From assembly GCA_951213105.1 (NCBI GenBank), contig OX578153.1:57272520-57336519 (forward strand): DNA of 64,000 nucleotides. The letters run 5' to 3'. This document shows, in pieces, positions 8,522 to 61,809 of this stretch. This stretch comes from Amaurobius ferox (taxonomy: Eukaryota > Arthropoda > Arachnida > Araneae > Amaurobiidae). Each line of letters opens with the position of its first letter. Positions within the stretch are counted from its first letter, which is position 1. The notes under the pieces are model-generated. The model made no database searches, was not told the DNA's origin, and was given only the letters and a program-made list of their open reading frames with translations. Both the position numbers and the translations under genes were made by a program.

Positions 8522-8606
8522 ACAATATATATGCACCGACCACTCATCCTGCTGCTCGTACCCTTGGGTGAGTCGGGTGGCCTGGGTCTTCAACAATATA
8601 TATGCA
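8522..8606 (+). mobile_element. Mini hairpin retroposon 1 with target duplications
   Basis: A 57-bp insert (8536-8592) lies between perfect 14-bp repeats ACAATATATATGCA (8522-8535 and 8593-8606). It starts CCGACCACTCATCC and ends GGCCTGGGTCTTCA. It folds as an outer stem CCACTC/GGGTGG around an inner hairpin CTC-gt-ACCC-tt-GGGT-GAG. The end matches the 3' tail of the SINEs at 5181, 45,613 and 54,902. It has no Pol III box A/B and no coding capacity. Target duplications of this size are typical of LINE-mediated retroposition. Confidence 0.85.
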
Positions 8607-9594
8607 TACAACTTACAAGACCTGCTTACTTGTATGAAAGTAGAGATTTTTGTTCAACGCAGAATATTTTGTTTCATTCAGAAAAGTATTCGTCTTAAAG
8701 AAAGTGTAGATAATATTTAGATATCCTACTACAAGTATTTATCTGTTCAGTGTGAGAAGTATCTATACACCTTAATATGGGATTCTACACCGTATAACTA
8801 AACCCTCAATCTACTCTATTAAAAGCAAATTGCGTTCATATGTATGTATGCATGTATGTATGTGTCCTCCATTCCATGGTCTCTACTGGGACCCGAAGCT
8901 CGTTTTTCTTTTAAATATAACTATCGATATCGAAAGGAACTTTTGGAAATTCGAAAAATTTAATAAATGTTTTCATATTTACAAAAACCTCATTATTTAG
9001 GGTAAAATATTGGTGCCAGGGTAAAAGCTATCTCCTCAGTCAAAAATAATGTAAGAAGGTTTAAACACGACATAAACCAGATTTTTTGGTTTAAACATGA
9101 CACTGATAAATTTTGAAAAGCCTCTAAAACCGGAATTTTGAAAACGTCGTTAATTTTTTATACAGATTTTTAAAAAACGAGAAAAGCATATTTTCAAATA
9201 ATTTATCTTGTTGCTCATAATTAAAATATTTTTCGAGTTAAAAATACTTACCGCCAAAAACTATTTTTCGAGTGACGATCTTCAAAATTTTTTATTGTGA
9301 AGCCTCATTCCTTAGCTCTGGAAAACTGCAACTGTTTTCTTTGTCACTTTATTCGTTAATTTTTTTATAATTAATTATCGATTCAATAAATTTTATTTCA
9401 AAGTCTCGTACGCACAGACGTGTGGAGAAAATCTCTCTCTCTATCATTCGACTCATGTTTGGGTCATTCTCATGTTTGAATAGGATCAAGGGTGTAAACT
9501 GGATCTTTGATTGAATCCTGTCTTCTTAGGACATCTGTGCTGATTATCGCTGGGGGGGAAACGATTTCTTATTACGGGAGTTTACGATCGAGGT
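8607..9594. other. Unassigned DNA with an LTR-like relic at ~8980-9060
   Basis: At 8985-9055 the phrases 'ttatttagggtaaaat', 'gccagggtaaaagctat' and 'cctcagtcaaaaataat' match 27,055-27,115, next to the 531-bp duplicates. So 8985-10,125 and the split second copy probably belong to one older, larger repeat, possibly LTR-derived: TTTATT gives AATAAA signals on the minus strand. 8820-8870 carries a (TATG)n tract. Nothing here is coding. Confidence 0.4.
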
Positions 9595-10125
9595 GGCTTT
9601 TATATTTACTCTTGGCGGTGTTGGGAGTGGCAACGGTGGTAAAAGGGAGCGGTGGGAGCAGCCCCTTTCCTAAAATCTCCTTTTATCTATATTAGCGACT
9701 CTTGCTCTGGTTTTGATGCAATTTCAAGTTGTATTTTCTACTCTGCAATGGACCCACTTGACTTGACCACATTAAATTTCGGATCAATTTTGTTATTTTG
9801 CGACTTCGAACGCGGAAATTGCTAAAAACTAGCTGCCATATTTAATGACTCTGCTAGTTTTCTTTCAAATGTACAAACCTCAACCAGAAGAAGGAAGCTA
9901 ATTAGATTTTATTTGAGCTCAAAACGATTCTTGTCCTGAATACAGGGACATGAGAAATTACACCGAAGCCTCTGGCTTCCACCAATTGTTGCTGTCAGCT
10001 AGATTTTTCTGATCGTATAAGAAATTACTAAAATTATCTTGCATTGTCTCTCTTCTTAACGTGGTCGAGGGGTGCTTCAGACTTTTCGGGTCCTACCACA
10101 CCTTTGTACAGTTCTGGAGCTTTTT
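9595..10125 (+). repeat. 531-bp tandem duplicate, unit 1 (unoccupied target site)
   Basis: Nearly identical to the next unit (10,126-10,407 continued at 26,757-27,006), including 'tatatttactcttgg.ggtgttggg', 'ctctgcaatggacccacttg' and 'aacctcaaccagaagaagg'. In this unit 'tttcaaatGTACaaacctc' (GTAC at 9871-9874) is uninterrupted. In the second unit the retrotransposon array sits at exactly that point. It therefore records the pre-insertion sequence. Confidence 0.9.
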
Positions 10126-10407
10126 GGCTTTTATATTTACTCTTGGTGGTGTTGGGAGTGGCAACGGTGGTAAAAGGGAGCTGTGGGAGCAGCCCCCTTT
10201 CCTAAAATCTCCCTTTCATCTATATTAGCAACTCTTTCTCTGGTTTTGATGCAATTTCAAGTTGTATTTTCTACTCTGCAATGGACCCACTTGACTTGTC
10301 CACATTAAATTTCGGATCTATTTTGTTATTTTCCGACTTCGAACGCGGAAATTGCTAAAAACTAACTGCCATATTTAATGATCCTGCTAGTTTTCTTTCA
10401 AATGTAC
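10126..10407 (+). repeat. 531-bp duplicate, unit 2, left part
   Basis: Matches 9595-9874 base for base with a few substitutions and stops at GTAC (10,404-10,407), where the LTR array starts. The unit resumes after the array at 26,757. Confidence 0.9.
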
Positions 10408-11296
10408 TGTGGCGTAGTGTTAGCGTGGTTTTATAGTCACAGCCAAATAATTCTCGAGTGACTTCAATTCTTTATTTATTTACAGCAATTAGGTAATATA
10501 CAATTTAGGTTACAAAGGTATCCCAATCTGATGTGAGGCGAATAGTCCGCTGAGGTCACTCTGACGTGTTCAAGCAAATGTCCACATCAATTTCCAGTGG
10601 AAAGTCTATGAGAGGTGATTCTCTAACTAGGTTTCAAGATGAAACTGACGTAAGTCCACGATGCGGTGACGTCCTGTCACGACGATGCTAGACCCGGGTG
10701 GTCTGAATTTTAGACTAGCGGTAGTCTATATGGATCGAGTCCTACTGGGCCCTCGATCTCTCTTCCGTTCCGTCCTTAGGTCAGGAACTATCGCAGAAGG
10801 TTTCTGCTCAAAAACCAAATACAGGGCCTATGCCCGAGAAGCACTCTCTTTCCAAAAAGACGAGCTCTCTTGTCGAAGATCAGATCTTAACTGCTCTCTC
10901 AAACCCTGCTCCGGTCGCCCTCAGAAAAAGAGCCACCAGGGGACAATTTACTCTCTATTTTTCTATTGGATCTTAATATCCGTGATGTCATTTTTCTTGA
11001 GTCTCATTTGTCCGGAGACTCGTGCCAGTAAGTCTAGGGGACACTCCCCTCACGTCTGGAGCTAACGTCTACGCGATCACTCAAGGCGGTTCATGCCAGC
11101 TTAGCCTTTCTTCTTAACTGTCAATTTTCCAGACATGGTGGCGCGGGATTCGCGACGTCCATTGTTCTGGTGACCTCTGCTGTCTTTAACATTCAAAGGG
11201 TCACAGGTGTGCCTGGTCTGGAATTTCTAAGCCCCAATTCTAATTCGGGGGGATTTAATTACAGCTTCATTTGCTAAATTAATTTAATTCGGCACA
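10408..11296 (-). repeat. LTR A (3' LTR of copy 1)
   Basis: 889 bp. On the minus strand it starts TGTGCCGAATT and ends CTACGCCACA, so it has TG...CA ends. Near its minus-strand 3' end it has overlapping AATAAA signals (AATAAATAAAGAATTG) suited to polyadenylation. It differs from LTR B at about five positions by my count. The plus-strand 126-codon frame at 10,685-11,065 is antisense and is present in all three LTRs simply because they are duplicates. Confidence 0.95.
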
Positions 11297-11310
11297 ATCC
11301 CTCCCCCCTT
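11297..11310 (-). other. Polypurine tract of copy 1
   Basis: On the minus strand AAGGGGGGAGGGAT lies directly before the 3' LTR start TGTGCC. This is the expected primer site for plus-strand DNA synthesis in LTR retrotransposons. Confidence 0.85.
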
Positions 11311-11490
11311 AGGGAGATTTTGTCTAGCAGGCAAAATCTGTAAGGCAAAGGGTTAGACATGGTTCACCTGACAACATCATTGGAGGCAACAAGGATTAAA
11401 ATAAAACAAAAAAAAATTAATATATACATAACACAATTCCTACAAAAATTATAAAAATATATACAGCACAATGTAATACAGTTTTTTTTC

Positions 11491-12978
11491 TTAATCTGGC
11501 AGCATTCTGCTCAGACAGTCTGCATGTCCGATCTCCTTTCCAGCCCGGTGAATGATCTGATAGTTAAAAGGCTGTAGAGCTAGGGCCCATCTCATCAATC
11601 TAGGGTTCTGACCAGAATTGGTTTTAAGGAACACTAATGGGTTATGATCGGTTTCGATTGTGAACTTTTGACCATCAAGGTAATGTCGCAGCTTTTTTAT
11701 TGCAAAAATTATGCCTGCGCATTCCTTCTCCGTGGTTCCAAACCTTTGTTCCGTTGTCGTAAATTTCCTACTCAAATATAATATTGGGTGGTCAGTACTA
11801 TCCGCCCCCTTCTGAGCCATTATTACGCCCAGCCCTTTTAATGACGCGTCAGTTTGAAGGATAAACTCCTTAGTGAAATCGGGTGCGTATAACACAGGCT
11901 TTTCTGTCAGTTTTGTTTTAAGCTCGTTAAAAGCGCTCTCGCACTCTTCCGTCCATACTATCTCCTCCTTCCTATTCTTTCCTTTCAGTGCCCGAGTCAG
12001 AGGTTCGGCAATAATTGCGTAATTACGTATATAGCGTGCGTAATAACCACTAAGGCCTAAAAACTGCCTGATTTGGGTTTTATTTCGGGGCGTCCGAAAA
12101 TCTAACACCGCTTTAATTTTCGCCTCGGTCGGCGTCCTTTGACCGTTCCCTACCATGTGTCCTAAGTATTTAATACAACTCTGTCCAAATTTGCATTTGG
12201 CAGGTTTTATCGTTAGTTTGGCAGAAGCGATTTTCCTCAAAACAACATCCAGGTGTTTTAAATGTTCATCCCAGGTCTCTGAGAAAATGGCAACGTCGTC
12301 CAGGTATGGAACACAAAATTCCTCACAACCCTGTAACAATTGTGCCATGAACTTGGACAAACAATAGGGGGCGTTGACTAAACCGAACGGAAGCACTAAC
12401 GGTCGGTACGTTCCGAAGGTCGTGACGAACGCGGCTAACCTTTGAGCTCTAGGACTTAAGGGGATCTGCCAGTACCCCTTGGTCAGATCAATTACCGTAA
12501 TGAACTTCGCTGACGACACCTTCTCTATCCTATCATCCATGTTAGGTAGCGGATAATATTCTGTGCGAATAATTGAATTTAACCGCCTGTAATCGACACA
12601 TAATCTCGGGTCCTTCCCTGGACTTTCCACTAGGATTATGGGTGAAGTATAATCCGACTCTCCAATCTCAATGATTTTTAATTCCAGCATTCTCTTAATC
12701 TCCCGTTTCACAATATCGTTCTGTCTCGGGGACGTCCTATACGGTTTAGAGCGTACGGGTTTATTGCTTATAAGTTCAATATCGTGCTCGATTAAATGCG
12801 TTCTGCCTGGATCATTTGAAAATAGATTTTCATGCGATTTCAGTAATTTCCTCAACTCTTCAATCTGTTCTGAAGTGCACTTTTCTCGTAACGCACTGTC
12901 CGTGACGATTTCCTCGAAATCAAAAATGTTGGGATTAGCTACGGCACAGAATACTATATTCAGAAGGCTCACTCCCAT
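11491..12978 (-). CDS. pol (RT-RH part): Reverse transcriptase-RNase H, copy 1
   Basis: A 495-codon frame. RT makes retrotransposon cDNA and RNase H removes the RNA template. RT is about residues 60-270: first catalytic Asp in VIDLTKGYWQIPLSP (D164), PFGLVNAP (about 197-204) and the active site YLDD (225-228). RNase H is about 370-490: D377 in QTDAS, E417, D444 in TDHNP and D487. The frame ends at its own stop, before the LTR, with no integrase after it. The first 11 codons lie inside the inserted hAT-like element, so the ATG at 12,978 is not original; the frame was once continuous with the integrase ORF. Homology is clearly Ty3/gypsy. It differs from copy 2 by one residue (I/V at 269). Domain assignment is very secure; whether it is expressed is doubtful. 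Confidence 0.93.
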   Translation of the reverse strand: MGVSLLNIVFCAVANPNIFDFEEIVTDSALREKCTSEQIEELRKLLKSHENLFSNDPGRTHLIEHDIELISNKPVRSKPYRTSPRQNDIVKREIKRMLELKIIEIGESDYTSPIILVESPGKDPRLCVDYRRLNSIIRTEYYPLPNMDDRIEKVSSAKFITVIDLTKGYWQIPLSPRAQRLAAFVTTFGTYRPLVLPFGLVNAPYCLSKFMAQLLQGCEEFCVPYLDDVAIFSETWDEHLKHLDVVLRKIASAKLTIKPAKCKFGQSCIKYLGHMVGNGQRTPTEAKIKAVLDFRTPRNKTQIRQFLGLSGYYARYIRNYAIIAEPLTRALKGKNRKEEIVWTEECESAFNELKTKLTEKPVLYAPDFTKEFILQTDASLKGLGVIMAQKGADSTDHPILYLSRKFTTTEQRFGTTEKECAGIIFAIKKLRHYLDGQKFTIETDHNPLVFLKTNSGQNPRLMRWALALQPFNYQIIHRAGKEIGHADCLSRMLPD

Positions 12979-12990
12979 AGGATCCTATGG
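12975..12990. other. 16-bp perfect palindrome near the insert's end
   Basis: CCATAGGATCCTATGG reads the same on both strands. It is followed within 20 bp by a related inverted pair (CATGGGATGTCCCATAG). It lies 30 bp inside the hAT-like element and contains the ATG that opens the RT frame. Subterminal inverted motifs are common transposase-binding sites in DNA transposons; that role here is inferred. Confidence 0.6.
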
Positions 12991-13742
12991 CAACATTTCT
13001 AACATGGGATGTCCCATAGACACTAGCGCTAGTCAGATGGACCAACTGAAGTGCGATGCGTCTGCCAGATTTGGCGCGTTATCGCTCGCTTGGCGATTTT
13101 TTTTAAAACGGGAGGGGAACAAAATGTTGAGGACTGTACTTTTATAATTTTTGAAACTATACAAAGGATCAGGATTTAAAAATACATTAATCTGCAACAT
13201 AAATATATTCATTAGTTTAAGAATATTTAAATAAACATAGTTATATATTTAATTCAAATAATCATAAAATAGATTAAAAAATACACACATTGCATTGTCT
13301 CACTATAAAACATAATGCACAAAAAATTACAAGCTAACATACTCAAAAGACTGAAATATTATATAATACTTTCAGTCTAAAAAGTATACTAGCGTGTTGA
13401 TCGTTCTTAATTTATTCTGGGATACTGATAATAGACTTTTTTTTTTTAATATAAAAATATTCATATAGTAAATATCAAATTTACATAAATGCACTATCGA
13501 AGTTGTGGAACTCAATCATTAATTACCCGAGGGGGGGGGGAATTTTTCACCATAAGGCACTTAATAAAAATTTTACATAAATATATACACATACTATATA
13601 TCACATTCAACTAAGAAAAAGCTATCCAAATATCAATTATTTCACATTTTATAAAAATACGGAAAATATTTAACTAATTATACCACTACCTCTTAAAATT
13701 TAGTCTAATCCGGCAGTAATAACAACACAGCACTAATTTCGT

Positions 13743-13812
13743 ATGATGAACACATGTATACTTATATGAACACGTGTATACTTATGAACACGTGTATACT
13801 TATAATGAACAC
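13743..13812. repeat. 19-20 bp tandem repeat in the pol insert
   Basis: About four units of 'atgaacacgtgtatacttat', the first with 'acatg' and the last truncated. Each carries the CACGTG palindrome or a variant. The same array is at 21,463-21,532 in copy 2, so it predates the duplication. Confidence 0.8.
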
Positions 13813-13960
13813 GTATGTAGGATGGTGATAACTAAAATTATTTCAATTTTAATAAACATAAATTACATACCCTGTAACGCAACCAGTTTTCTTTTATCAA
13901 TCCATTTCTATAAAATGATCTAAACACTTAACAAATAATCCTTTTTCACGTTACGGTTAC

Positions 13961-16939
13961 TCAAACCACGCTAGTCTGTTGTTCTAAGTTTTCGCCGAGC
14001 GAAATAGGGTTATAACATTGAAAATCGGCTTGGACCCAAACCAGATCATCGCCAAGGGCTCGAATCAAACCAGACCATCGCCAAGAGCGCGCCAACCCAA
14101 TGTTTGGTCTATCTCTAATGGCCGCCGCGAAAACGAAACTATCCAGAGTGACAGGTCTGTATAGTAGTCTGTGAGCTACGGGATATGAAATATCCAACTC
14201 CGAATCCTTCGTTTCCTCTGCAACATTTTCGCTTATTAAAACATTCACGCACTCCACGCGCTGGTGATATGGTTTTAATAAATTTACGCGGTACACTTGT
14301 ACCTTTTCAGATTTCCCTGGCATCCTTACAGTGTAATTTGTCTCGGATAATTTTCTCTCAATAGTCCCGGGACCTATCCACTTAACGGCTAATTTATTCG
14401 GCCGGTGCGTCGCCAAAACCAAAACCTGATTCCCTGTCTTAAATTCTCTTTTAACGGAACCCTTATCATAATACTCCTTTCCTTTTATTTTGTTATCTGT
14501 CTCCGTTTCCGAAGCCAGCTGCTGACAATGCCTTAATCGGTTTAAAAGGTCAAATACATAATCCGTGACCACATCATCTGTTATCGGCTCACGCGCCCAC
14601 TGCTCGAACAATAGAGTCTCCGGTGTCCGAAGGTTCCTGCCGTGAACTAACTCGGAGGGACTAAATCCAGTAGATTCGTGGGTGACATTGCGTAATGCCA
14701 GCAAGACTGAGGGCAAATGTCGCTCCCATTCAGTACCGGTTTCGGCACACATTGCACGCAAAAGTCTTTTAATTGTCCGGTGAAATCTCTCGACTGGATT
14801 TGACTGGGGGTGATAAATAGAACTATGGGTGGTTTTCACTCCAAACTTTTCGAAGAACGTCGTTGTCAAGTTGCTAGTGAAATAGCTTCCATTGTCCAAT
14901 TGGACTTCCCTGGGGTACCCAATGCGGCTAAATAACAACAACAAAGCATCCGTCACGTTCTGCGAGCTTACCGTAGGTAAAGGTATAGCTTCAGGATATT
15001 TAGAGGCTATGTCAATACAAGTTAGGAGGTACCTATTATTTTTCGAAGATACCGGCAGCGGCCCTACGGTATCTATGTTTATTTTTGAAAATATTTCTGA
15101 AATCACAGGCACAAGTTTAAGTGGGGCTTTTTTCTTTTCTAATGATTTCCCCACCCGCTGACATGCATCACAAGTTTTTACCATTTCTTCGACGTTTTTA
15201 AAGCATTGAGGCCAAAAATAGTGTCTCAAAAGCTTATCCTTGGTCTTAGTAGTTCCCATGTGCGAACCAAAACCTTCATGACAAAGACTTAATATTTTTG
15301 ATCTATACTTAGTGGGAATCAACAGCTGTTTCCTAACTAATCCTCGGTGATCTGTTGATTTTCTGAACAGTAATTCGCGTTCAATTACAAATTCCGACGT
15401 TTTATTTTGCTCTACCTTTTCCCAGAGAGACTTTAAATTTGGGCATATTTTCTGTTCCTCTAAGAATTCAGTAGCGTCTACGTTTATCAATTCTTGCGTA
15501 GGGTATGGTTCAACCGGAGGTAAATCAATCGGTTCTTCTTGCCCATCTATTAATTCTTCACTTTCCGCCACATTTGCGGGTTCTGACTCAATCAATTTTA
15601 ATTTTTCATCGAAATTTCCTTTATTTCCCGTTTCCGCGCTCCCTTTTGGTTCTTCGGTTGCCTTTTTAGATTTGCTTTGACTCCTCGTAATCATAGCATT
15701 AATTCTTTGGGGGTTATCCTTATTTAAGTCGATTAATTCCTGACTTGAGTTCCCCAACAGATAGTGATTCATTTCCACTGATTTGCCTACGATGGCTGCC
15801 TTGGTTCGAATTGTTCCGAATTCAGTGCTTTCCAAAATTACACGGGCTAGCGGTAAACACATAAAATCATTTCCTAAGGGTTGCTTTACCCACACGGTCT
15901 CCCCTGTAAAATCTTCGGGTTTTACTACATTGATGGACGCAAGATCTATGCTACTTCCGCTGTCACGAAGTATAAGCGTATCTATGGAATTCACTTTCGC
16001 CCGGCTTAAATAGGGTTTAAATGAAGCATTAAAATGGTCGGTCGTCTCTAGATTATTTACAATCTCCGCGCCCCTTTTTGATTCGGTACAGTTCGTACTG
16101 ATGTGTCCGATTTTCCGGCAGAGATAGCACGTCACACTTTTCTTCCGCTCGAATTCCCTCGTTCTCCAATCGTTATTTGTTTGATTAGCACTCGACCCAT
16201 TTTTAGGCACGTTCCTATTTACTTCCACCCTTTTCCCAGCTTGGGTTTGTTCGGTTGTTTTTGGGCGGTCTACAAATTTCTTTTCGGGAGGTTTAAAAAT
16301 TTGGGGTTTCTTTATAAAACGTCTAGCAGCTTCGTAATCATCTAATTTCTTCGCTAGTTCGCTTGGTCTGTTAACTTTTCCCCAATTATCGATGAAGTGT
16401 TCTTTCACTTCGGCCGACACGCGTCTTTTTATTTGGTCCGCCACCATCAATTCTTTTAAAGATTCAAAATCCTGAACCTCTATTTCTCTTAGCCATCCTT
16501 CGAGATATGCCCGTAACTCAAAAACGAGGTCTTTCCAGAGCTCTCCTTCTCGTTTTTTATGTGTTTGGAATTTGGTCCTAAGGGTCTCTGAGTTAAGTTT
16601 AAATCTTTCCATCAGTACCGACTTAATATGTTCATAGTCATCGACTTTCTCTTCGGGCTCTCTAATTATAATTTCGGCGATCTCAATCGGAATCAAACTA
16701 AGTAATTGAGTTACCCATTCCTCCTTCTCGATTCCATTCTTACGAGCTTGACGCTCAAATAACGTCAGAAATAGAGCCATATCCGATTTTTCGGGTTCAT
16801 ATTTCTGCATTACAGATATTAAATTTCTAGGGGGTCTCGCGCTCTCACGACTCGACGAGGCCAAGCTAATTGTTTCCCCACTTTGAGCCAAACGCAACTT
16901 TTCAAGTTCGTATGCCCGTTCCTCTCTTAATTTTTCTGA
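13961..16939 (-). CDS. gag-pol (PR-INT part): Gag-protease-integrase ORF, copy 1
   Basis: An open frame of 992 codons following an in-frame TAA. Numbering from codon TTG at 16,897 (first ATG is at 16,810): a capsid with SCAN-like helices at about 30-195, a CCHC zinc knuckle CYLCRKIGHISTNC (257-270), an aspartic protease with active-site DSGSS (312-316), an acidic linker, the integrase H2C2 zinc domain (H540, H546, C576, C579) and the integrase core D609, D668 (LDNGSYF) and E703 (PVERFHR), 35 apart. A GPY/F-like module (KWIGPG, 840-844) follows. Protease is followed directly by integrase, so RT comes after. Residues 909-978 are read from the inserted DNA element and are not retroviral. It differs from copy 2 at two residues (K/R206, D/N457). 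The SCAN-like capsid fits Gmr1-like elements, the proposed source of vertebrate SCAN domains. Confidence 0.93.
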   Translation of the reverse strand, partial: SEKLREERAYELEKLRLAQSGETISLASSSRESARPPRNLISVMQKYEPEKSDMALFLTLFERQARKNGIEKEEWVTQLLSLIPIEIAEIIIREPEEKVDDYEHIKSVLMERFKLNSETLRTKFQTHKKREGELWKDLVFELRAYLEGWLREIEVQDFESLKELMVADQIKRRVSAEVKEHFIDNWGKVNRPSELAKKLDDYEAARRFIKKPQIFKPPEKKFVDRPKTTEQTQAGKRVEVNRNVPKNGSSANQTNNDWRTREFERKKSVTCYLCRKIGHISTNCTESKRGAEIVNNLETTDHFNASFKPYLSRAKVNSIDTLILRDSGSSIDLASINVVKPEDFTGETVWVKQPLGNDFMCLPLARVILESTEFGTIRTKAAIVGKSVEMNHYLLGNSSQELIDLNKDNPQRINAMITRSQSKSKKATEEPKGSAETGNKGNFDEKLKLIESEPANVAESEELIDGQEEPIDLPPVEPYPTQELINVDATEFLEEQKICPNLKSLWEKVEQNKTSEFVIERELLFRKSTDHRGLVRKQLLIPTKYRSKILSLCHEGFGSHMGTTKTKDKLLRHYFWPQCFKNVEEMVKTCDACQRVGKSLEKKKAPLKLVPVISEIFSKINIDTVGPLPVSSKNNRYLLTCIDIASKYPEAIPLPTVSSQNVTDALLLLFSRIGYPREVQLDNGSYFTSNLTTTFFEKFGVKTTHSSIYHPQSNPVERFHRTIKRLLRAMCAETGTEWERHLPSVLLALRNVTHESTGFSPSELVHGRNLRTPETLLFEQWAREPITDDVVTDYVFDLLNRLRHCQQLASETETDNKIKGKEYYDKGSVKREFKTGNQVLVLATHRPNKLAVKWIGPGTIERKLSETNYTVRMPGKSEKVQVYRVNLLKPYHQRVECVNVLISENVAEETKDSELDISYPVAHRLLYRPVTLDSFVFAAAIRDRPNIGLARSWRWSGLIRALGDDLVWVQADFQCYNPISLGENLEQQTSVV

Positions 16940-17140
16940 TTACGATTCCCTGGATTCATTTAATTGTCGTTCCTCTATAATCGTTTCTAACATGGCCTTA
17001 ACACCTGGTTCGTCAAAATCTGGACTCTCCTGAATTTTTTTCACAAGGTCAATTATTTTTTCCTCCTCTCCCAACTCTAGACCTAATTCTACAACGAGGC
17101 TTTGAAGATCCGTTTTTCTATGCCTTTTTAAAAATGCCAT
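16940..17140 (-). pseudogene. gag: Start of gag, copy 1, cut by an in-frame stop
   Basis: 66 codons beginning MAFLKRHRKTDLQSLVVELG, then TAA (16,942-16,940), after which the same frame continues as a charged helix into the capsid ORF. The ATG follows a leader of about 985 bases from the LTR. The helical, Glu/Lys-rich N-terminus resembles the start of gag in this group. Copy 2 has the same stop, so it was fixed before duplication. Readthrough is possible in principle, but no gammaretrovirus-like signal is evident, so I treat it as a disabling mutation. Confidence 0.8.
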
Positions 17141-17941
17141 TTCAAATAATTCGTGAATTCACGGGGAATCACTAACACTTTAATTAGAACAATAATCCAA
17201 TTTTTAAAACGTCCCTTTCCAAAGGTCAATACACACAGTACCTATAATTTATCCCACAATACACTAATCCCTCTTCCCTACTTAACAATAAGACTCTCAT
17301 CTGAAGAAGGGGAGAATTCCTTTCAATTGAAACTGCCTGGGGCGTGTCTAGCACGGCTTAACTATCCCCACAGCTCTAAGCCTCTAAGGATTATAACACA
17401 CAATAACACATCTATCTCCTGACTAGCAATGGTTATGCAATTTACATTAAATAAAACTATTAGTTGCAATAACACTTTACAAGATTTTATCTTGGTCATT
17501 CAATTATAATTATTCGGATACTTATGCCACAATTTAGTTAAGTTTAAATGCAACTTCCAACACTATACAATATGAATGTATGGCATTAATTTAAATTAAT
17601 GTAAGACATATATAATAACATTTTGCCAAAAAAAATAGTTTACTAAACTGGAATATTTTAAAAATTTCCTAGACCTCAAACTTGCATACTGTTTGACAGT
17701 TACGCACATACAACAATTTAATCTGGTTCTTAATTAAATTAGTTATTTTTCACAAATTACAAATTAATCTAATTCTACCAAAATTTTGTTTGCCTCCAAA
17801 AAAATGAGTCAGGCTTACCTTGTCTGAAGACCCTCGCTCTGCGTCGATGTCACTCAGCTCAATGACGATGCCGTCTCCTCTGACGTAACCTTTCACCACA
17901 GGATGACTCGCAACGGTTTCAGAAGGGATCTGGCACTCGCT
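17141..17941. other. Untranslated leader of copy 1
   Basis: AT-rich 5' leader between the primer-binding region and gag on the minus strand. No uORF of note. The plus-strand frame at 17,153-17,422 is antisense and non-coding. Packaging signals would be expected here but cannot be identified by eye. Confidence 0.5.
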
Positions 17942-18008
17942 CCTGGACGGGATGTCCTCTTAAAGTCTTGGACGGGATGTCCTCTTAACTCTTGGACGGG
18001 ATGTCCTA
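17942..18008. repeat. 22-bp minisatellite in the leader, three units (copy 1)
   Basis: Units of 'cttggacgggatgtcctctt' repeated three times; copy 2 has four (25,661-25,750). The unit-number change is the largest length difference between the two internal regions. Confidence 0.9.
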
Positions 18009-18100
18009 CAGCTCCAGTCCGCAGTAGTCCGGTCTGTTTACTTGCTTCAACTTCTTGATGAAGTGTGGGCCTGTCGTCTTTAATTTGACGATCGATTTAT

Positions 18101-18118
18101 CCAACTCAGCTGCCACCA
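18101..18118 (-). other. Putative primer-binding site, copy 1
   Basis: On the minus strand TGGTGGCAGCTGAGTTGG starts seven bases after the LTR end ...CGCCACA. It opens with TGG as a tRNA 3'-CCA complement must. The first ten bases would pair with the acceptor end of some tRNA-Leu species (from memory); the remaining bases fit poorly, so the tRNA is tentative. Confidence 0.55.
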
Positions 18119-18125
18119 AAATGGC

Positions 18126-19014
18126 TGTGGCGTAGTGGTAGCGTGGTTTTATAGTCACAGCCAAATAACTCTCGAGTGACTTCAATTCTTTATTTATTTA
18201 CAGCAATTAGGTAATATACAATTTAGGTTACAAAGGTATCCCAATCTGATGTGAGGCGAATAGTCCGCTGAGGTCACTCTGACGTGTTCAAGCAAATGTC
18301 CACATCAATTTCCAGTGGAAAGTCTATGAGAGGTGATTCTCTAACTAGGTTTCAAGATGAAACTGACGTAAGTCCACGATGCGGTGACGTCCTGTCACGA
18401 CGATGCTAGACCCGGGTGGTCTGAATTTTAGACTAGCGGTAGTCTATATGGATCGAGTCCTACTGGGCCCTCGATCTCTCTTCCGTTCCGTCCTTAGGTC
18501 AGGAACTATCGCAGAAGGTTTCTGCTCAAAAACCAAATACAGGGCCTATGCCCGAGAAGCACTCTCTTTCCAAAAAGACGAGCTCTCTTGTCGAAGATCA
18601 GATCTTAACTGCTCTCTCAAACCCTGCTCCGGTCGCCCTCAGAAAAAGAGCCACCAGGGGACAATTTACTCTCTATTTTTCTATTGGATCTTAATATCCG
18701 TGATGTCATTTTTCTTGAGTCTCATTTGTCCGGAGACTCGTGCCAGTAAGTCTAGGGGACACTCCCCTCACGTCTGGAGCTAACGTCCACGCGATCACTC
18801 AAGGCGGTTCATGCCAGCTTAGCCTTTCTTCTTAACTGTCAATTTTACAGACATGGTGGCGCGGGATTCGCGACGTCCATTGTTCTGGTGACCTCTGCTG
18901 TCTTTAACATTCAAAGGGTCACAGGTGTGCCTGGTCTGGAATTTCTAAGCCCCAATTCCAATTCGGGGGGATTTAATTACAGCTTCATTTGCTAAATTAA
19001 TTTAATTCGGCACA
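18126..19014 (-). repeat. LTR B (shared middle LTR)
   Basis: 889 bp, TG...CA on the minus strand. It serves as 5' LTR of copy 1 and 3' LTR of copy 2. There is no flanking target duplication: internal sequence lies on both sides. It shares with C several bases at which A differs (for example TTTTACAG versus TTTTCCAG), and shares with A several at which C differs, as expected for a recombinant middle LTR. Confidence 0.95.
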
Positions 19015-19028
19015 ATCCCTCCCCCCTT
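19015..19028 (-). other. Polypurine tract of copy 2
   Basis: AAGGGGGGAGGGAT on the minus strand next to LTR B, identical to copy 1. Confidence 0.85.
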
Positions 19029-19209
19029 AGGGAGATTTTGTCTAGCAGGCAAAATCTGTAAGGCAAAGGGTTAGACATGGTTCACCTGACAACATCATTG
19101 GAGGCAACAAGGATTAAAATAAAACAAAAAAAAAATTAATATATACATAACACAATTCCTACAAAAATTATAAAAATATATACAGCACAATGTAATACAG
19201 TTTTTTTTC

Positions 19210-20697
19210 TTAATCTGGCAGCATTCTGCTCAGACAGTCTGCATGTCCGATCTCCTTTCCAGCCCGGTGAATGATCTGATAGTTAAAAGGCTGTAGAGCT
19301 AGGGCCCATCTCATCAATCTAGGGTTCTGACCAGAATTGGTTTTAAGGAACACTAATGGGTTATGATCGGTTTCGATTGTGAACTTTTGACCATCAAGGT
19401 AATGTCGCAGCTTTTTTATTGCAAAAATTATGCCTGCGCATTCCTTCTCCGTGGTTCCAAACCTTTGTTCCGTTGTCGTAAATTTCCTACTCAAATATAA
19501 TATTGGGTGGTCAGTACTATCCGCCCCCTTCTGAGCCATTATTACGCCCAGCCCTTTTAATGACGCGTCAGTTTGAAGGATAAACTCCTTAGTGAAATCG
19601 GGTGCGTATAACACAGGCTTTTCTGTCAGTTTTGTTTTAAGCTCGTTAAAAGCGCTCTCGCACTCTTCCGTCCATACTATCTCCTCCTTCCTATTCTTTC
19701 CTTTCAGTGCCCGAGTCAGAGGTTCGGCAATAATTGCGTAATTACGTATATAGCGTGCGTAATAACCACTAAGGCCTAAAAACTGCCTGATTTGGGTTTT
19801 ATTTCGGGGCGTCCGAAAATCTAACACCGCTTTAATTTTCGCCTCGGTCGGCGTCCTTTGACCGTTCCCTACCATGTGTCCTAAGTATTTAACACAACTC
19901 TGTCCAAATTTGCATTTGGCAGGTTTTATCGTTAGTTTGGCAGAAGCGATTTTCCTCAAAACAACATCCAGGTGTTTTAAATGTTCATCCCAGGTCTCTG
20001 AGAAAATGGCAACGTCGTCCAGGTATGGAACACAAAATTCCTCACAACCCTGTAACAATTGTGCCATGAACTTGGACAAACAATAGGGGGCGTTGACTAA
20101 ACCGAACGGAAGCACTAACGGTCGGTACGTTCCGAAGGTCGTGACGAACGCGGCTAACCTTTGAGCTCTAGGACTTAAGGGGATCTGCCAGTACCCCTTG
20201 GTCAGATCAATTACCGTAATGAACTTCGCTGACGACACCTTCTCTATCCTATCATCCATGTTAGGTAGCGGATAATATTCTGTGCGAATAATTGAATTTA
20301 ACCGCCTGTAATCGACACATAATCTCGGGTCCTTCCCTGGACTTTCCACTAGGATTATGGGTGAAGTATAATCCGACTCTCCAATCTCAATGATTTTTAA
20401 TTCCAGCATTCTCTTAATCTCCCGTTTCACAATATCGTTCTGTCTCGGGGACGTCCTATACGGTTTAGAGCGTACGGGTTTATTGCTTATAAGTTCAATA
20501 TCGTGCTCGATTAAATGCGTTCTGCCTGGATCATTTGAAAATAGATTTTCATGCGATTTCAGTAATTTCCTCAACTCTTCAATCTGTTCTGAAGTGCACT
20601 TTTCTCGTAACGCACTGTCCGTGACGATTTCCTCGAAATCAAAAATGTTGGGATTAGCTACGGCACAGAATACTATATTCAGAAGGCTCACTCCCAT
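19210..20697 (-). CDS. pol (RT-RH part): Reverse transcriptase-RNase H, copy 2
   Basis: 495 codons, identical to the copy 1 RT-RH except V for I at residue 269. All catalytic residues are kept: D164, YLDD 225-228, and RNase H D377, E417, D444 and D487. As in copy 1, it starts on an ATG supplied by the inserted hAT-like element and is cut off from the upstream gag-PR-INT frame. It is intact as a reading frame, but there is no obvious way to make the normal Gag-Pol fusion. Confidence 0.93.
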   Translation of the reverse strand: MGVSLLNIVFCAVANPNIFDFEEIVTDSALREKCTSEQIEELRKLLKSHENLFSNDPGRTHLIEHDIELISNKPVRSKPYRTSPRQNDIVKREIKRMLELKIIEIGESDYTSPIILVESPGKDPRLCVDYRRLNSIIRTEYYPLPNMDDRIEKVSSAKFITVIDLTKGYWQIPLSPRAQRLAAFVTTFGTYRPLVLPFGLVNAPYCLSKFMAQLLQGCEEFCVPYLDDVAIFSETWDEHLKHLDVVLRKIASAKLTIKPAKCKFGQSCVKYLGHMVGNGQRTPTEAKIKAVLDFRTPRNKTQIRQFLGLSGYYARYIRNYAIIAEPLTRALKGKNRKEEIVWTEECESAFNELKTKLTEKPVLYAPDFTKEFILQTDASLKGLGVIMAQKGADSTDHPILYLSRKFTTTEQRFGTTEKECAGIIFAIKKLRHYLDGQKFTIETDHNPLVFLKTNSGQNPRLMRWALALQPFNYQIIHRAGKEIGHADCLSRMLPD

Positions 20698-21899
20698 AGG
20701 ATCCTATGGCAACATTTCTAACATGGGATGTCCCATAGACACTAGCGCTAGTCAGATGGACCAACTGAAGTGCGATGCGTCTGCCAGATTTGGCGCGTTA
20801 TCGCTCGCTTGGCGATTTTTTTTAAAACGGGAGGGGAACAAAATGTTGAGGACTGTACTTTTATAATTTTTGAAACTATACAAAGGATCAGGATTTAAAA
20901 ATACATTAATCTGCAACATAAATATATTCATTAGTTTAAGAATATTTAAATAAACATAGTTATATATTTAATTCAAATAATCATAAAATAGATTAAAAAA
21001 TACACACATTGCATTGTCTCACTATAAAACATAATGCACAAAAAATTACAAGCTAACATACTCAAAAGACTGAAATATTATATAATACTTTCAGTCTAAA
21101 AAGTATACTAGCGTGTTGATCGTTCTTAATTTATTCTGGGATACTGATAATAGACTTTTTTTTTTTAATATAAAAATATTCATATAGTAAATATCAAATT
21201 TACATAAATGCACTATCGAAGTTGTGGAACTCAATCATTAATTACCCGAGGGGGGGGGAATTTTTCACCATAAGGCACTTAATAAAAATTTTACATAAAT
21301 ATATACACATACTATATATCACATTCAACTAAGAAAAAGCTATCCAAATATCAATTATTTCACATTTTATAAAAATACGGAAAATATTTAACTAATTATA
21401 CCACTACCTCTTAAAATTTAGTCTAATCCGGCAGTAATAACAACACAGCACTAATTTCGTATGATGAACACATGTATACTTATATGAACACGTGTATACT
21501 TATGAACACGTGTATACTTATAATGAACACGTATGTAGGATGGTGATAACTAAAATTATTTCAATTTTAATAAACATAAATTACATACCCTGTAACGCAA
21601 CCAGTTTTCTTTTATCAATCCATTTCTATAAAATGATCTAAACACTTAACAAATAATCCTTTTTCACGTTACGGTTACTCAAACCACGCTAGTCTGTTGT
21701 TCTAAGTTTTCGCCGAGCGAAATAGGGTTATAACATTGAAAATCGGCTTGGACCCAAACCAGATCATCGCCAAGGGCTCGAATCAAACCAGACCATCGCC
21801 AAGAGCGCGCCAACCCAATGTTTGGTCTATCTCTAATGGCCGCCGCGAAAACGAAACTATCCAGAGTGACAGGTCTGTATAGTAGTCTGTGAGCTACGG
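20656..21899. mobile_element. hAT-like element inserted in pol, copy 2
   Basis: Element 20,664-21,891 (1228 bp) with the same inverted ends and the same AGCTACGG flanks (20,656-20,663 and 21,892-21,899) as copy 1. It is one base shorter overall, including a shorter poly-G run near 21,250. Identical position and flanks in both copies mean that insertion preceded array formation. Confidence 0.9.
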
Positions 21900-24657: not shown

Positions 24658-24858
24658 TTACGATTCCCTGGATTCATTTAATTGTCGTTCCTCTATAATC
24701 GTTTCTAACATGGCCTTAACACCTGGTTCGTCAAAATCTGGACTCTCCTGAATTTTTTTCACAAGGTCAATTATTTTTTCCTCCTCTCCCAACTCTAGAC
24801 CTAATTCTACAACGAGGCTTTGAAGATCCGTTTTTCTATGCCTTTTTAAAAATGCCAT
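24658..24858 (-). pseudogene. gag: Start of gag, copy 2, same in-frame stop
   Basis: 66 codons identical to copy 1, ended by the same TAA (24,660-24,658) with the frame continuing beyond it. An identical stop in both copies argues for inheritance from one already defective parent. Confidence 0.8.
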
Positions 24859-25660: not shown

Positions 25661-25750
25661 CTGGACGGGATGTCCTCTTAAAGTCTTGGACGGGATGTCC
25701 TCTTAAACTCTTGGACGGGATGTCCTCTTAACTCTTGGACGGGATGTCCT
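25661..25750. repeat. 22-bp minisatellite in the leader, four units (copy 2)
   Basis: One more 'cttggacgggatgtcctctt' unit than copy 1. Confidence 0.9.
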
Positions 25751-25843
25751 ACAGCTCCAGTCCGCAGTAGTCCGGTCTGTTTACTTGCTTCAACTTCTTG
25801 ATGAAGTGTGGGCCTGTCGTCTTTAATTTGACGATCGATTTAT

Positions 25844-25861
25844 CCAACTCAGCTGCCACCA
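25844..25861 (-). other. Putative primer-binding site, copy 2
   Basis: TGGTGGCAGCTGAGTTGG on the minus strand, seven bases from the end of LTR C; identical to copy 1. Tentative tRNA-Leu. Confidence 0.55.
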
Positions 25862-49089: not shown

Positions 49090-49330
49090 AGCTTCGGAGG
49101 TTTCCTGCTCTACCTAAACTATCCCCGTGTATACGTAGAGAACGATCACGTTTAATTCATTGGTTTGTAAGTCTTTCCGAGAGGTTGATGGTAGGGGAAG
49201 GTGGGTACGGTCCTGTATATGGCGTCCCTCTGGGATACGGTATAAATTGTGTGTCCCCACAGTCCAGATACTTTACACCTTCGGGTAAGTCAGACTGTCT
49301 GGATCGAAAGAAAACAAGAAAGCTGCAGCC
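49090..49330 (+). mobile_element. SINE body-and-tail copy, head lost
   Basis: Plus strand: 'gagaacgatcacgtttaatt', 'tttccgagaggttgatggta', 'ggggaaggtgggtacggtcc', 'ctgggatacggtataaattg' and 'tcgggtaagtcagactgtct' follow the order of the SINE body and tail at 55,090-55,284. No 5S or tRNA head is recognisable. A diverged, 5'-truncated copy. Confidence 0.65.
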
Positions 49331-54888: not shown

Positions 54889-55297
54889 CATTTCGCTTCA
54901 GCCAACGGCCCTACCGTGCTGAAAACACCGGTTCTTGTTAGATCACCGAAGTCAAGCAGCCTCGGGCGCGGTTAGTACTTGGGTGGGTGACCACCTGGGA
55001 CCACCGCATGGTGCTGGCACATTTCGGACGCGGTAGCTCGGTGGTTTGCGCGCTGGATTTGCACGCTGCCACAACTGCCGCCGTGTTCATGCGGAGTACG
55101 ATCACGTTAAACATGTGGGTCCGTAAGTCCTTCCGAGAGGTTGGTGGTAGGGGAAGGAGGGTACGGTCCCTGTGGATGCCTCCCCCACTGGGTTCCAGTC
55201 TAAATTGGGTGGCACTTCCCGGCCGTCCAAACGGTTACCTTACACTTTTCTGGTAGGTCGGACGGCCTGGGTCTCAACAACAACCATTTCGCTTCAG
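54889..55297 (+). mobile_element. 5S-rRNA-headed SINE, copy 3 (plus strand, youngest)
   Basis: SINE 54,902-55,284, between perfect 13-bp duplications CATTTCGCTTCAG (54,889-54,901 and 55,285-55,297). The head (to about 55,017) is 5S rRNA: CCAACGGCC, GAAAACACCGGTTCTTGTTA, ATCACCGAAGTCAAGCAGC and GGTTAGTACTTGGGTGGGTG, so the internal Pol III control region is kept. Next is a tRNA-like piece (GGTAGCTCGGTGGTTTGCGC, box A-like), then body, tail hairpin GGCCGTCC/GGACGGCC and (CAA)n. The plus frame at 54,987-55,256 is not a protein. The head is clearly retroposed, not an rRNA gene. Confidence 0.93.
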
Positions 55298-55853: not shown

Positions 55854-57185
55854 CGAGGCTCGTCCACAAAGTAAGTTTCCCTGGGTTCGTTTAGTGAAAA
55901 GAAACACAATTTCATGGAAATATTTATTGCAACAGATACAGCAAGTGTTCAGCTATTTTTCAACATATACGCCATCGGAATTCATACATTTGTCATACCG
56001 TGGGACCAACTTTTGAATACCCGTGTCGTAGAAGTCTGCCGCCTGGGATTTGAACCACTGTGTGATAACCATCTCCGCTTCTCTGTCATTCTCAAAACGC
56101 TGACCGGACAGGTATTTCTTGAGGTGTAGGAAAAGATGGAAATCACTGGGAGTGAGGTCCGGACTGTAGGGTGGATGATTAAACACCTCCCAGCTGAACT
56201 CCTGCAAGAGACTTGATGTCCGTCGAGCAGTGTGCGGCCCAGCTTAATCGTGCAGGAAGACAATACCGGCACTAAGCATCCCGCGCCGCTTGTTCTGAAT
56301 GGCCCGTCGCAATTTCTGCAGCGTTTCGTAGTAACGCTCAGCATTCACCGTCTCACCTCTGGTCAGGAATTCAACGTGAAGAACGCCCCGTCTGTCCCAG
56401 AACACCGTGCGCATCACTTTCCGCGCCGACAACGTCTGCTTGAATTTCGTCCTACAGGGAGATCCACTGTGACGCCAATGCATTGACTGCAGCTTTGTTT
56501 CTGGGGTAATGTGTGCAATCCACGTTTCATCACCTGTGATGATCCGGTCCAGAAAATGGTCGCCGTCATCATGGTACCGCTGCAGAAATGTCACTGCTGA
56601 CCCCATGCGCTTTGTTTTGCGTTCTGGTGTCAGTTGCTTCAGCACCCACCTGGCACACAATTACGTGAATAACAGGTGCTCCGTGACAATTTCGTGCAAC
56701 AAGAAGCGGGAAATCTGCGGGAAATGACTGCCGAGTTTCGTAATTGTGAAGCGACGATTCTCCATAATGCGTTCCCGCACAAGCTCCACAAGGTCGTCTG
56801 TAATGATGGATGGCCTCCCACTGCGCTTCTCATCCTGCACACTTTGTCGACCTGCTGAAAATTCAGTGCACCAGAGACACACCATCTGCTTGCTCATGAC
56901 GTTAGGCCCATAGACCCGGCACAGCTGACGATGAATTTCGATCGGCGCTATGCTCTGTGCATTCAAAAATTTTATCACTGACCGCACTTCACAGTCGGCG
57001 GGAGCGGGAATAAGAGCCTTCATCTTCAACAGCTGCAACGATGCTACTGTGACAACGCGGGAAGTACCGTTAGTGCATGCGCCATGCTACGCCATTGCTG
57101 TATCACGTACGCGTAGTCGTTTCGCGCAACATAAGGTTTGCTAGCTGTGGGACGAGTGGGAAACTTACTTTGTGGATGCGCCCCG
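55854..57185 (-). mobile_element. Mariner element 2, full length with TIRs
   Basis: 1332 bp. The 28-bp ends differ at three bases (left CGAGGCTCGTCCACAAAGTA..., right complement CGGGGCGCATCCACAAAGTA..., both then AGTTTCCC). Flanked by TA at 55,852-55,853 and 57,186-57,187. Inserted in an R300 unit: flanking 'aataatttgt' and 'ttcaattatttctattg' are contiguous in other units. Confidence 0.93.
55953..57038 (-). pseudogene. Mariner transposase, two in-frame stops (element 2)
   Basis: One continuous frame of 362 codons. The N-terminus has a paired HTH region ('EVRSVIKFLNAQSIAPIEIH', 'KQMVCLWCTEFSAGRQSV', 'RSGRPSIITDDLVELV'). TAA at 56,663-56,661 falls in the normally basic stretch before 'LCARWVLKQLTPE'. 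First catalytic Asp: IITGDETWI. The second Asp motif LHD is followed at once by TAA (56,243-56,241), where a conserved Asn codon is normal. Third Asp: PPYSPDLTPSDFHLF. C-terminus ends YDKCMNSDGVYVEK. All three Asp are present, with no frameshift: a recently inactivated DD34D mariner of the SETMAR-like group. Confidence 0.93.
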
Positions 57186-59372: not shown

Positions 59373-59467
59373 ACATTATTTGTTTGCCCCTTCCCGGCCG
59401 TCCAACTAGTTACTCTAAGTCCTCTGGACGAGTCGGACGGTCTGGGTCTTCAACATTATTTGTTTGC
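59373..59467 (+). mobile_element. Mini hairpin retroposon 4 with perfect target duplications
   Basis: A 65-bp insert (59,388-59,452) between perfect 15-bp repeats ACATTATTTGTTTGC (59,373-59,387 and 59,453-59,467). It starts CCCTTCCCGGCCGTCC and ends GGACGGTCTGGGTCTTCA. Outer stem CCGTCC/GGACGG, extended by G-T, G-C and CCC/GGG across a bulged T; inner hairpin ACTC-taa-GTCC-tct-GGAC-GAGT. The start coincides with that of element 5. No Pol III boxes. Confidence 0.92.
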
Positions 59468-60310: not shown

Positions 60311-60328
60311 TTGGTTAACTTTTTCCTT

Positions 60329-60519
60329 ATATGACTTACAATTTAGCAATATAGACATACGTTTTAAATGGATTATCTCTTAGATTGGAATTAAATTAAT
60401 TCAATATTGATTAGATTAAAAAAGCCGATATATAACTTGCAATTAAGCAATATAGACACTTTTTAAATGCATTATCTCTTAGATTAGAATAAATTAATTC
60501 AGTATTGACTCAATTAAAG
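60329..60519 (+). repeat. Tandem duplication, ~100 bp unit x2
   Basis: Units 'atgacttacaatttagcaat...' (60,329) and 'tataacttgcaattaagcaa...' (60,429) share 'aatatagaca', 'ttttaaatg.attatctctt' and 'aaattaattca.tattga'. Confidence 0.8.
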
Positions 60520-61139
60520 AATCATTTTATTATTTTTTAACGCTATTGTATACATGGAGTTCACGGATAATCACGACATTTTCGGACGGTCTGGGTCTTC
60601 AACTTAAAGACATCATGAACACATTTCGAACATTTTGGGAAATATTTCCATCAGTGTGTGTGTGTATCTGTGGGGTGTGAATGCACGTATCACTACGGCA
60701 ACTTATATGTAGATGCATTCTATAGAAAATTAGAAACAGGTAGAATATTTTGTAATAAAAGGGGATTAAAACATTATTCGAAATTAGAGGTTTTAAATTA
60801 GAGAGAGTACGTACAGCCACGAAATTCTATATGTAGCTGCATTCTGAAAAAATTAGAATTTGGTAGATCATCATGTAATTAACGTGATTAGAATACGTGT
60901 GAAAGGGAGGGAGGGAGACACAGAGAGAGAGAGAGAAAGAGTGTGTGTGTGTGTGTCAAAATATAGTACGATCAAAATATAGTGTGGTAACTGGGTGCAA
61001 AAAAATCTGAATGAATGATGGAGAGCGCCAAATACTTCGGATTTCATTAATTTAATGCATTAAAGACTTCGCATTTACTTTCAAGTTATAACTGAATAAT
61101 GCGTTAAAGTTATAACTCTAAGGCAATGGATTGATTTTT
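60520..61139. other. Unassigned DNA with a SINE-tail scrap
   Basis: 'ttttcggacggtctgggtct' and 'tcaac' at 60,580-60,603 match the 3' end of the mini elements, without flanking duplications. 60,905-60,955 is a GA/GT tract. No gene. Confidence 0.45.
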
Positions 61140-61640
61140 ACTTTCATATATATAGGTGAAAATTTGAATTCCAGTTTTTGTTGGGAGAGCACGTTTCAAG
61201 CAACCTTGGCCACGAATCAGGCGTTTTTAAAGTCATGCATGTATGTGTTTGATGTGTGTGCGTGCGAGTGTGTGTGTGTGTGCATGCGAGTGTGTGTGTG
61301 CATATGTGAGTGCGTGAGTGTGCATGTGTGAGTGCGTGAGTGTGCATGTGTGAGTGCGTGAGTGTGCATGTGTGAGTGCGTGAGTGTGCATGTGTGAGTG
61401 CGCATGTGTGAGTGCGTGAGTGTGCATGTGTGAGTGCGTGAGTGTGCATGTGTGAGCGCGTGTGTGTGTCAGTGAATCTGTGGAGACGATATCTCACGAA
61501 CGAATGAAGCGATTCGAACGAAATTTGGTACAAAATTACAATTAGGAAAAACCGGAAACCTGTTGCTTAATGTTAGAACATGTATTAGCAAAATAAGATT
61601 TCTTTTAGCAAAATGCTAAAAAAAAACTAACATACAGCAA
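61140..61640 (+). repeat. Repeat family X, copy 5, partial
   Basis: 'gtgaaaatttgaattccagt', 'gggagagcacgtttcaagca', 'cacgaatcaggcgtttttaa', GT minisatellite, 'gaatctgtggagacgatatc', 'acgaacgaatgaagcgattc', 'aaatttggtacaaaattaca'. The right half is missing. Confidence 0.7.
61255..61465. repeat. 22-bp GT-rich minisatellite in family X copy 5
   Basis: Units 'gtgagtgcgtgagtgtgcat' plus 'gt' repeated about eight times. Long minus-strand frames here (His/Thr repeats) are artefacts. Confidence 0.95.
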
Positions 61641-61714
61641 AGTATGTTTGGAGAAATGCCTTACCCGTTCTCATAGCGTAGCGTCACTTCATAGCTAACC
61701 GCATCTATTTTGAC

Positions 61715-61809
61715 ACAGCTGCTATGTGCTCTTTCCCGGCCGTGCAAATAGTTGCTCAAATCCTCAGGATGAGTCGGACGGTCTGGGCCCTCAACAGCTG
61801 CTATGTGCT
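61715..61809 (+). mobile_element. Mini hairpin retroposon 5 with perfect target duplications
   Basis: A 63-bp insert (61,731-61,793) between perfect 16-bp repeats ACAGCTGCTATGTGCT (61,715-61,730 and 61,794-61,809). It starts CTTTCCCGGCCGTGC, ends GGACGGTCTGGGCCCTCA. Outer stem as in element 4 with one mismatch. The inner stem is ATCC-tca-GGAT, where element 4 has GTCC-tct-GGAC: a compensated change at the closing pair. A hAT element lies immediately to the right and duplicated part of this target. Confidence 0.92.

Follow-up and report, generated by a model that had tools for sequence, protein, structure and literature searches.

The stretch analysed here is a window of 64 kb from the genome of the spider Amaurobius ferox, and its main feature is a set of five very short plus-strand inserts, referred to below as mini-elements e1 to e5, each flanked by a target-site duplication (TSD). 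Mini-element e1 (8536-8592, 57 nt) lies between perfect 14-bp copies of ACAATATATATGCA (8522-8535 and 8593-8606), e2 (28166-28216, 51 nt) between CTACCACCAATCTC and CTACTACCAACCTC (14 bp with two mismatches, 28152-28165 and 28217-28230), e3 (33967-34024, 58 nt) between ACATAATTATGCA and ACATAATTAGGCA (13 bp with one mismatch, 33954-33966 and 34025-34037), e4 (59388-59452, 65 nt) between perfect 15-bp copies of ACATTATTTGTTTGC (59373-59387 and 59453-59467), and e5 (61731-61793, 63 nt) between perfect 16-bp copies of ACAGCTGCTATGTGCT (61715-61730 and 61794-61809). Direct reading of the letters together with a TSD finder set these boundaries and confirmed an earlier first-pass annotation, which had reported five inserts with duplications of 13-16 bp, three of them perfect. 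The inserts belong to three sequence types with one common fold, namely type C (e1, with the stem CCACTC/GGGTGG, and e3), type A (e2), and type B (e4 and e5); the type letters used here and below were coined in the present analysis. The covariance model (CM) matches e1 (56.5 bits), e3, e4 (74.1 bits), and e5. The mini-element is a discrete retroposon of about 60 nt, well below the usual size of jumping elements, and not a product of random truncation. We think it likely that each insert is a free-standing copy of the hairpin in which a long interspersed element (LINE) ends at its 3' side, moved by LINE enzymes.

The insertion of e2 can be seen against an uninterrupted counterpart. It cuts an older minus-strand short interspersed element (SINE) of 5S type into two parts (body and tail at 28030-28308, with a CM-matched hairpin at 28030-28082), whereas the full SINE copies at 5.2, 45.6, and 54.9 kb cross the same target unbroken and thus provide an internal empty site. 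The e2 locus itself (28166-28230) occurs in three copies that are 100% identical over 65 nt and lie ~57-58 kb apart (C22:57185233 and 57242556, that is, L002 and L003), a recent segmental duplication. A TSD score of at least 10 was reached by 10 of 400 random positions and by 44 of 63 tails in which no SINE body was recognised; these 63 contain a few SINE tails that escaped flagging as well as stacked copies. Neither Rfam at gathering scores nor ARAGORN found anything within the inserts, which consist of tail only. Over the whole window, ARAGORN (bacterial setting) gave no tRNA and Rfam gave only three 5S SINE heads, with no dedicated scan for the A/B boxes of an RNA polymerase III (Pol III) promoter.

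The common fold combines a CCC/GGG stem with stems of 6 and 4 bp and an inner hairpin. Across 46 copies, 91.0% of the stem cells are paired (83.0% in shuffled alignments), 84 cells show a two-sided change (25.5 +/- 4.8 shuffled), and the covariation score is 0.381 (0.237 shuffled), values that none of 500 shuffles reached. Related sequences may beat shuffles without any structure; structures slid by 1 to 3 columns preserve relatedness, and their pairing is only 25-45%, so that this control is clear. The column pair 24-41 shows all of CG, UA, GC, and AU, while most type A copies have one C-A mismatch in the 6-bp stem. The proposal of a hairpin with compensating changes is thus supported by the 46-copy test. 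Tails of the SINE type (type S) are distinct from types A to D in the loop. A ribozyme of the hepatitis delta virus-like or hammerhead kind was considered on account of the defined 5' end and set aside, as no Rfam ribozyme is present in the window at gathering scores and the covarying fold is a single long hairpin.

The window's own genome (G000, 3.56 Gb) was searched for further copies. The e2 query gave at least 49 matches (40 of 1479 candidates scored), and an exact 24-mer from the type B 3' end was counted 11,459 times, compared with 0 for its reversed control. Nineteen random 10-kb stretches (190 kb) contain 10 tail-only copies, two of them S-type, from which a copy number of ~188,000 is extrapolated (95% Poisson range 90,000-345,000). 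In the random stretches and the window together, the CM yields 30 hairpins with E no higher than 1, SINE tails counted.

The main length sample comprises the first 60 listed 24-mer sites, taken regardless of upstream sequence and anchored on the last 24 nt only; removal of four segmental duplicates left 56 independent sites. A clean duplication is present at 48 of the 56 and is perfect in 38; the eight sites without one are L065, L071, L072, L074, L078, L092, L095, and L101. The 48 insert lengths are 28, 34, 36, 39 (twice), 42, 48, 52, 53, 57 (twice), 58 (four), 59 (18), 60 (two), 62, 63 (four), 64 (three), 67, 80, 82, 84, and 93 nt, that is, 35 at 57-67 nt with 18 at exactly 59 nt, nine shorter, and four longer. 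Among the long outliers (80-93), L067 and L096 read 64 nt by eye when the nearer duplication copy is taken, L052 is internally rearranged, and L079 is extended by ~20 bases at its 5' end; chance matches next to the duplication distort a few of the short lengths (L048, L088). The upstream flanks of all 60 sites were compared mutually, with SINEs, and with two LINEs, and a recognisable SINE or LINE body running into the hairpin was found at 0 of 60 (95% upper bound ~5%; L092 not judgeable). What the flanks do contain is varied: four inserts lie within SINE tails (L081, L083, L085, L107), one has a SINE tail just upstream (L091), four have upstream mini-elements (L052, L078, L082, L086), three have a repeat in common and each its own perfect duplication (L048, L054, L063), and one has a single 20-nt match to a LINE in the opposite direction (L087).

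Pooling 84 inserts (stacks L022 and L023 excluded, a few segmental duplicates retained) places 28 of the 5' ends at -1 relative to the first stem C, 9 at 0, 13 at +3/+4, and 4 beyond +7. The break points are therefore peaked at -1/0 and +3/+4 and do not show the continuous spread expected of 5'-truncated LINE copies. If the inserts were simply SINEs or LINEs truncated at random from the 5' side, this would account for the 3' end common to mini-elements, SINEs, and LINEs and for the 9 of 48 clean inserts shorter than 57 nt, and genuine 5'-truncated SINEs do exist in this genome (L044:3428-3529). However, the 5' ends break off sharply between +4 and +7 nt above the stem, 18 of 48 inserts measure exactly 59 nt, and SINE-type tails have a different loop from types A to D. 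We judge random truncation refuted as the main source by the 3'-anchored length distribution and regard it as very improbable. The 3'-anchored lengths and the 5'-end peaks hence agree with the first-pass annotation in its view of a discrete retroposon of ~60 nt; a continuous length distribution up to SINE size, which it had named as fatal to that view, was not seen in the one 3' variant checked.

Insertion occurs at a narrow target with the consensus (T)TAC|ACA, where (T)TAC precedes the duplication and the duplication opens with ACA. The ACA start is imposed by the 24-mer in the type B sample; separately selected e2-type copies open mostly with AC, often with ACA. Upstream of the duplication (n = 48), C is found at -1 in 35, A at -2 in 33, T at -3 in 31, and T at -4 in 27. 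We also noticed stacked insertions. At L022, seven mini-elements of several types and a tRNA-headed SINE are separated by versions of ACATGCTGAGTYC, and at L046 a mini-element, a truncated 5S SINE, and another mini-element are separated by versions of ACACTTATAATATC. A ladder at L023:1852-2557 consists of ten units of 72 bp, each a mini-element plus target duplication, and could be a later tandem duplication. By eye, 2 of the 19 random stretches contain stacks, as do 8 of the 25 loci selected with e2 (L004-L028), which form a biased sample. About 2.2 million TTACAC sites are expected genome-wide; since each insertion retains the site, stacking may partly reflect saturation of a short target.

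A search with the LINE endonuclease domain identified a young LINE family, with 34 of the 150 best matches sharing an identical score and open reading frames (ORFs) of up to 1189 aa. The hairpin stands at the very terminus in all ten 3' ends read from those 34 (L108, L114-L122). In L108 the stop codon is followed by a spacer of ~576 nt and then by CCCGGCCACACATTAAACTGCCGTAAGCCCTAGGGTTGGCTGTGTGGTCTGGGCCTTCGACA, and the nine others agree. The CM matches L108 with 61.1 bits (9.8e-15 each on L108 and L114); the young LINE was excluded from model building, although a few mini-elements of its tail type were included. One copy (L108/L123) has the 13-bp TSD ACATATTTTCTGA after GAATAC, read by eye while an exact-match search printed nothing, and both its target and its duplication length match those of the mini-elements. 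This copy is 5'-truncated within an ORF bearing CCHC-like knuckles (by eye). The reverse transcriptase (PF00078) of the young LINE matches a spider protein named R1DM at 45% identity over 78%; the nearest named proteins are spider proteins called R1DM or R1, and others listed are named jockey or BS. The tail, type E, is common to the young LINE and to the mini-elements with its exact tail. Since a LINE with the matching hairpin, target, and duplication length was found, a LINE reverse transcriptase is the likely mover, as had been supposed when the search for a LINE with the same 3' fold was suggested. The notion that the element moves on its own is not borne out: a detached LINE 3' tail, common with 5S- and tRNA-headed SINEs, should need LINE enzymes.

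In a second LINE family (L124, L125; both copies read), a degenerate A-like hairpin is followed by an S-type hairpin and (AAC)n. The SINEs, both 5S- and tRNA-headed, share the S-type tail with this LINE and so probably took it from there; the LINE itself may have gained its new tail through an adjacent insertion, a possible case of tail switching. The terminal hairpin was not found in 10 other LINE copies (L109-L113, L126, L128-L131), where the stretch read may miss the end in several and, for L131, falls past the point at which the end would be predicted by comparison with the young LINE. In four of L109-L113, partial CM matches of 3.6-9.8 bits were obtained. The 3' ends of L110, L111, and L113 contain a short stretch like CCGTATACCTTCGGGTGGGTCGG that resembles the inner hairpin (8-10 bits) and is perhaps a distant relative of the tail.

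The hairpin shape and short size might also suggest the remnant of a DNA transposon, that is, a miniature inverted-repeat transposable element (MITE) with a hairpin-forming sequence. The duplications are variable (usually 13-16 bp), however, as are the 5' ends, 5'-truncated copies exist, and the 3' end is that of a LINE or SINE tail. MITEs are marked by a short TSD of fixed length and by terminal inverted repeats that recur in an element coding for a transposase; neither mark was seen, and we find this origin scarcely credible.

Birth of tail-only copies and INDEPENDENCE were approached through genome-wide exact counts of the young LINE's 61-nt tail with and without 21 nt of LINE body. The exact tail occurs 254 times, 187 of them with the body; among the first 100 listed, 29 are without the exact body (hand comparison of lists). 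Seven bodiless tails were read, of which five (L134-L138) are tail-only with a duplication seen by eye, L132 is a LINE with a mutation in the body, and L133 is unclear. The five begin with CCGG plus 0-2 extra bases, or with CTCTCCCGG plus one extra base, close to both type B 5' ends. As they combine the exact young-LINE tail with a duplication and no body, tail-only insertions can arise from the LINE tail.

Such insertions could also be nothing but abortive reverse transcription, in which mini-elements are by-products of longer LINE or SINE transcripts whose copying stops at the hairpin base, with no independent short RNA. In favour of this are the existence of mini-elements with the young LINE's exact tail, beginning near the same two positions, and S-type tail-only copies beside SINEs (L046:8389, L039:9740). 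Yet such stops are a minority in the young LINE (at most 67 of 254 tails are without the exact body), compared with 0 of 60 bodies in the type B sample, and a single stop rate cannot yield both. We therefore consider abortive copying as the sole source rather unlikely. The absence of bodies from 60 type B sites and their presence in at least 187 of 254 young-LINE tails (Fisher p 5e-29) suggest instead that type B probably uses a short template of its own. The simplest reading of these counts is probably a short RNA template that sometimes comes from LINE RNA and is now self-sustaining in type B.

Several points weigh against the reading of the mini-elements as LINE-tail retroposons with, in type B, a template of their own. 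The Fisher test pits an exact-match count against a hand-read sample, and the 67 "bodiless" tails include mutated bodies. Hairpins of types A to D were not found at the very end of any LINE (a degenerate A-like hairpin precedes the terminal one of the second LINE), so that type B could still stem from an unseen LINE; a type B LINE with an extreme early-stop rate, of which the mini-elements would be by-products, is a live rival. The endonuclease search covered the 150 best-scoring of 12,003 candidates, and the LINE target is known from one copy. All 60 sites of the length sample come from within the first 19 Mb of a single chromosome and represent a single 3' variant; one of them, L092, is a tail truncated at the 5' end whose upstream sequence is unexplained and in which the presence of a body could not be judged. 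Two of the five covariation measures in the fold test are not above chance, namely pairs that change on both sides (8 vs 6.6, reached by 99 of 500 shuffles) and further pair types (24 vs 23.4, 221 of 500). Folding energies of single copies are unremarkable (z of -0.42, +0.41, -1.41, -2.13, and -0.71 for e1 to e5), and the fold thus rests on covariation.

The mechanism we propose starts from direct observations: inserts of discrete length, their duplications and target, a hairpin whose stems covary, the same fold at the ends of LINEs and SINEs, and tail-only insertions with the exact tail of one LINE. A LINE endonuclease would nick at (T)TAC|ACA; the LINE reverse transcriptase would recognise the tail hairpin, prime at its 3' end, and copy the ~59-66-nt hairpin RNA; and second-strand joining would generate the duplication, usually of 13-16 bp. 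A LINE protein whose reverse transcriptase is nearest to proteins named R1 presumably does the work. The template would be a short RNA with its 5' end at the hairpin base, either 1 nt inside the stem or 3-4 nt above it. In one lineage at least, type B, copies would now spread from a short RNA of their own and not from LINE transcripts. Candidate sources of this RNA are cleavage or trimming of LINE RNA and processing of read-through transcripts of existing copies. More tentatively, the ~60-nt LINE tail may have become a lineage of its own, the smallest known retroposon, whose short RNA is copied by several LINEs, which builds mixed stacks by re-insertion and which offers a pool of exchangeable tails for new LINE 3' ends, as in the second LINE with its two hairpins in a row; we hold this wider picture to be possible, with some doubt.

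The remaining repeats of the window include three 5S-headed SINEs, at 54901-55284 (plus strand; Rfam head 54901-55019, S-type hairpin 55215-55275, then (AAC)n), at 5182-5563 (minus strand; head 5447-5565, S-type hairpin tail 5190-5247), and at 45611-45977 (minus strand; head 45859-45977, S-type hairpin tail 45619-45676). The last ~60 nt of all three form the S-type hairpin, 77-79% identical to e4, a feature overlooked in the first-pass annotation. An old diverged SINE body with tail is located at 49110-49312 (plus strand, CM-matched hairpin 49256-49305). A 22-nt perfect match to the e4 3' end plus "AC" at 60582-60603 (plus strand), likewise overlooked there, is without a clear TSD and is perhaps an extreme 5' truncation. 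A tRNA-headed SINE elsewhere in the genome (L029:6640-6929) and the 5S-headed SINE at 54901-55284 have body and tail in common, which indicates head exchange. A tandem long terminal repeat (LTR) retrotransposon occupies 10407-28000, with the repeat at 10407, 18125, and 25868 (99% identical); its minus strand carries a separate reverse transcriptase ORF after gag-like, protease, and integrase regions, an unusual order (domains named by eye). ORFs at 40592-41569, 55953-57086, and 29255-30087 appear mariner and IS1595/Merlin-type transposase-like, also by eye.

If this interpretation is true, the mini-elements represent a natural isolation of the minimal LINE reverse transcriptase template and confine its RNA requirements within about 60 nt. 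The stem variants would be a ready structure-function series, and the narrow target would make a clean assay. Mixed stacks and the two-hairpin LINE provide a view of possible LINE/SINE tail exchange, and an insertion class of this abundance could escape annotation pipelines that apply a length floor.

A tail-only retroposon of ~60 nt was not found described in the literature, as judged by titles and the beginnings of abstracts, with most subscription literature outside this scope, and exact-pattern searches outside the host genome gave nothing in viral contigs (two patterns) or prokaryote genomes (one). The closest known systems are SINEs with LINE-derived tails, the stringent-type pairs, which are likewise non-autonomous, have a 3' hairpin in common with a partner LINE, and create target duplications. 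Such SINEs have a head and a body, whereas the mini-element is a tail alone of 59-66 nt without a tRNA or 5S head. Taken feature by feature, duplications of the target-primed reverse transcription type are present (48 of 56 sites) and a LINE-shared 3' part is present for types S and E, with no same-type LINE found for types A to D; a head derived from tRNA, 7SL, or 5S with a Pol III promoter is missing from these tail-only inserts, although no dedicated A/B-box scan was made. The same terminal stem-loop is carried by coding LINEs (10 of 10 in the young family, 2 of 2 in the second), as in stringent LINE tails.

Copies of LINEs with 5' truncation also keep the 3' end, have target duplications, and arise by target-primed reverse transcription; truncated members of 100-1,000 bp, broken at various positions, are reported in PMC3747384, while the 5' end of mini-elements is concentrated at the hairpin base and most are 57-67 nt long. 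Internally deleted non-autonomous elements of R2 and R2/R1 hybrid type (PMC3414825) likewise appear to depend on a LINE 3' end for mobilisation; to judge from the title they derive from full-length elements through internal deletion and would therefore keep a 5' part, of which the mini-element has none. Nine SINEs, each with a tRNA promoter, have been described from the German cockroach (PMC9191728). The zebrafish LINEs ZfL2-1 and ZfL2-2 have a terminal stem-loop recognised by the LINE protein (PMC4176376), and an L1 lineage of maize and sorghum shows compensatory stem changes in LINE/SINE tail hairpins with a conserved loop UCU and flank CGAG (PMC3747384); type B here has TCT in the inner-hairpin loop and CGAG at and after the stem end. 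The reverse transcriptase of the young LINE, in contrast to those of the zebrafish and maize/sorghum stringent-tail LINEs, is nearest to proteins named R1. LINE stem-loop recognition is thus established for the zebrafish elements, and compensatory changes in tail hairpins for the maize and sorghum lineage. In stringent LINE tails the hairpin belongs to the LINE or SINE, whereas in this spider it also inserts by itself in very large numbers.

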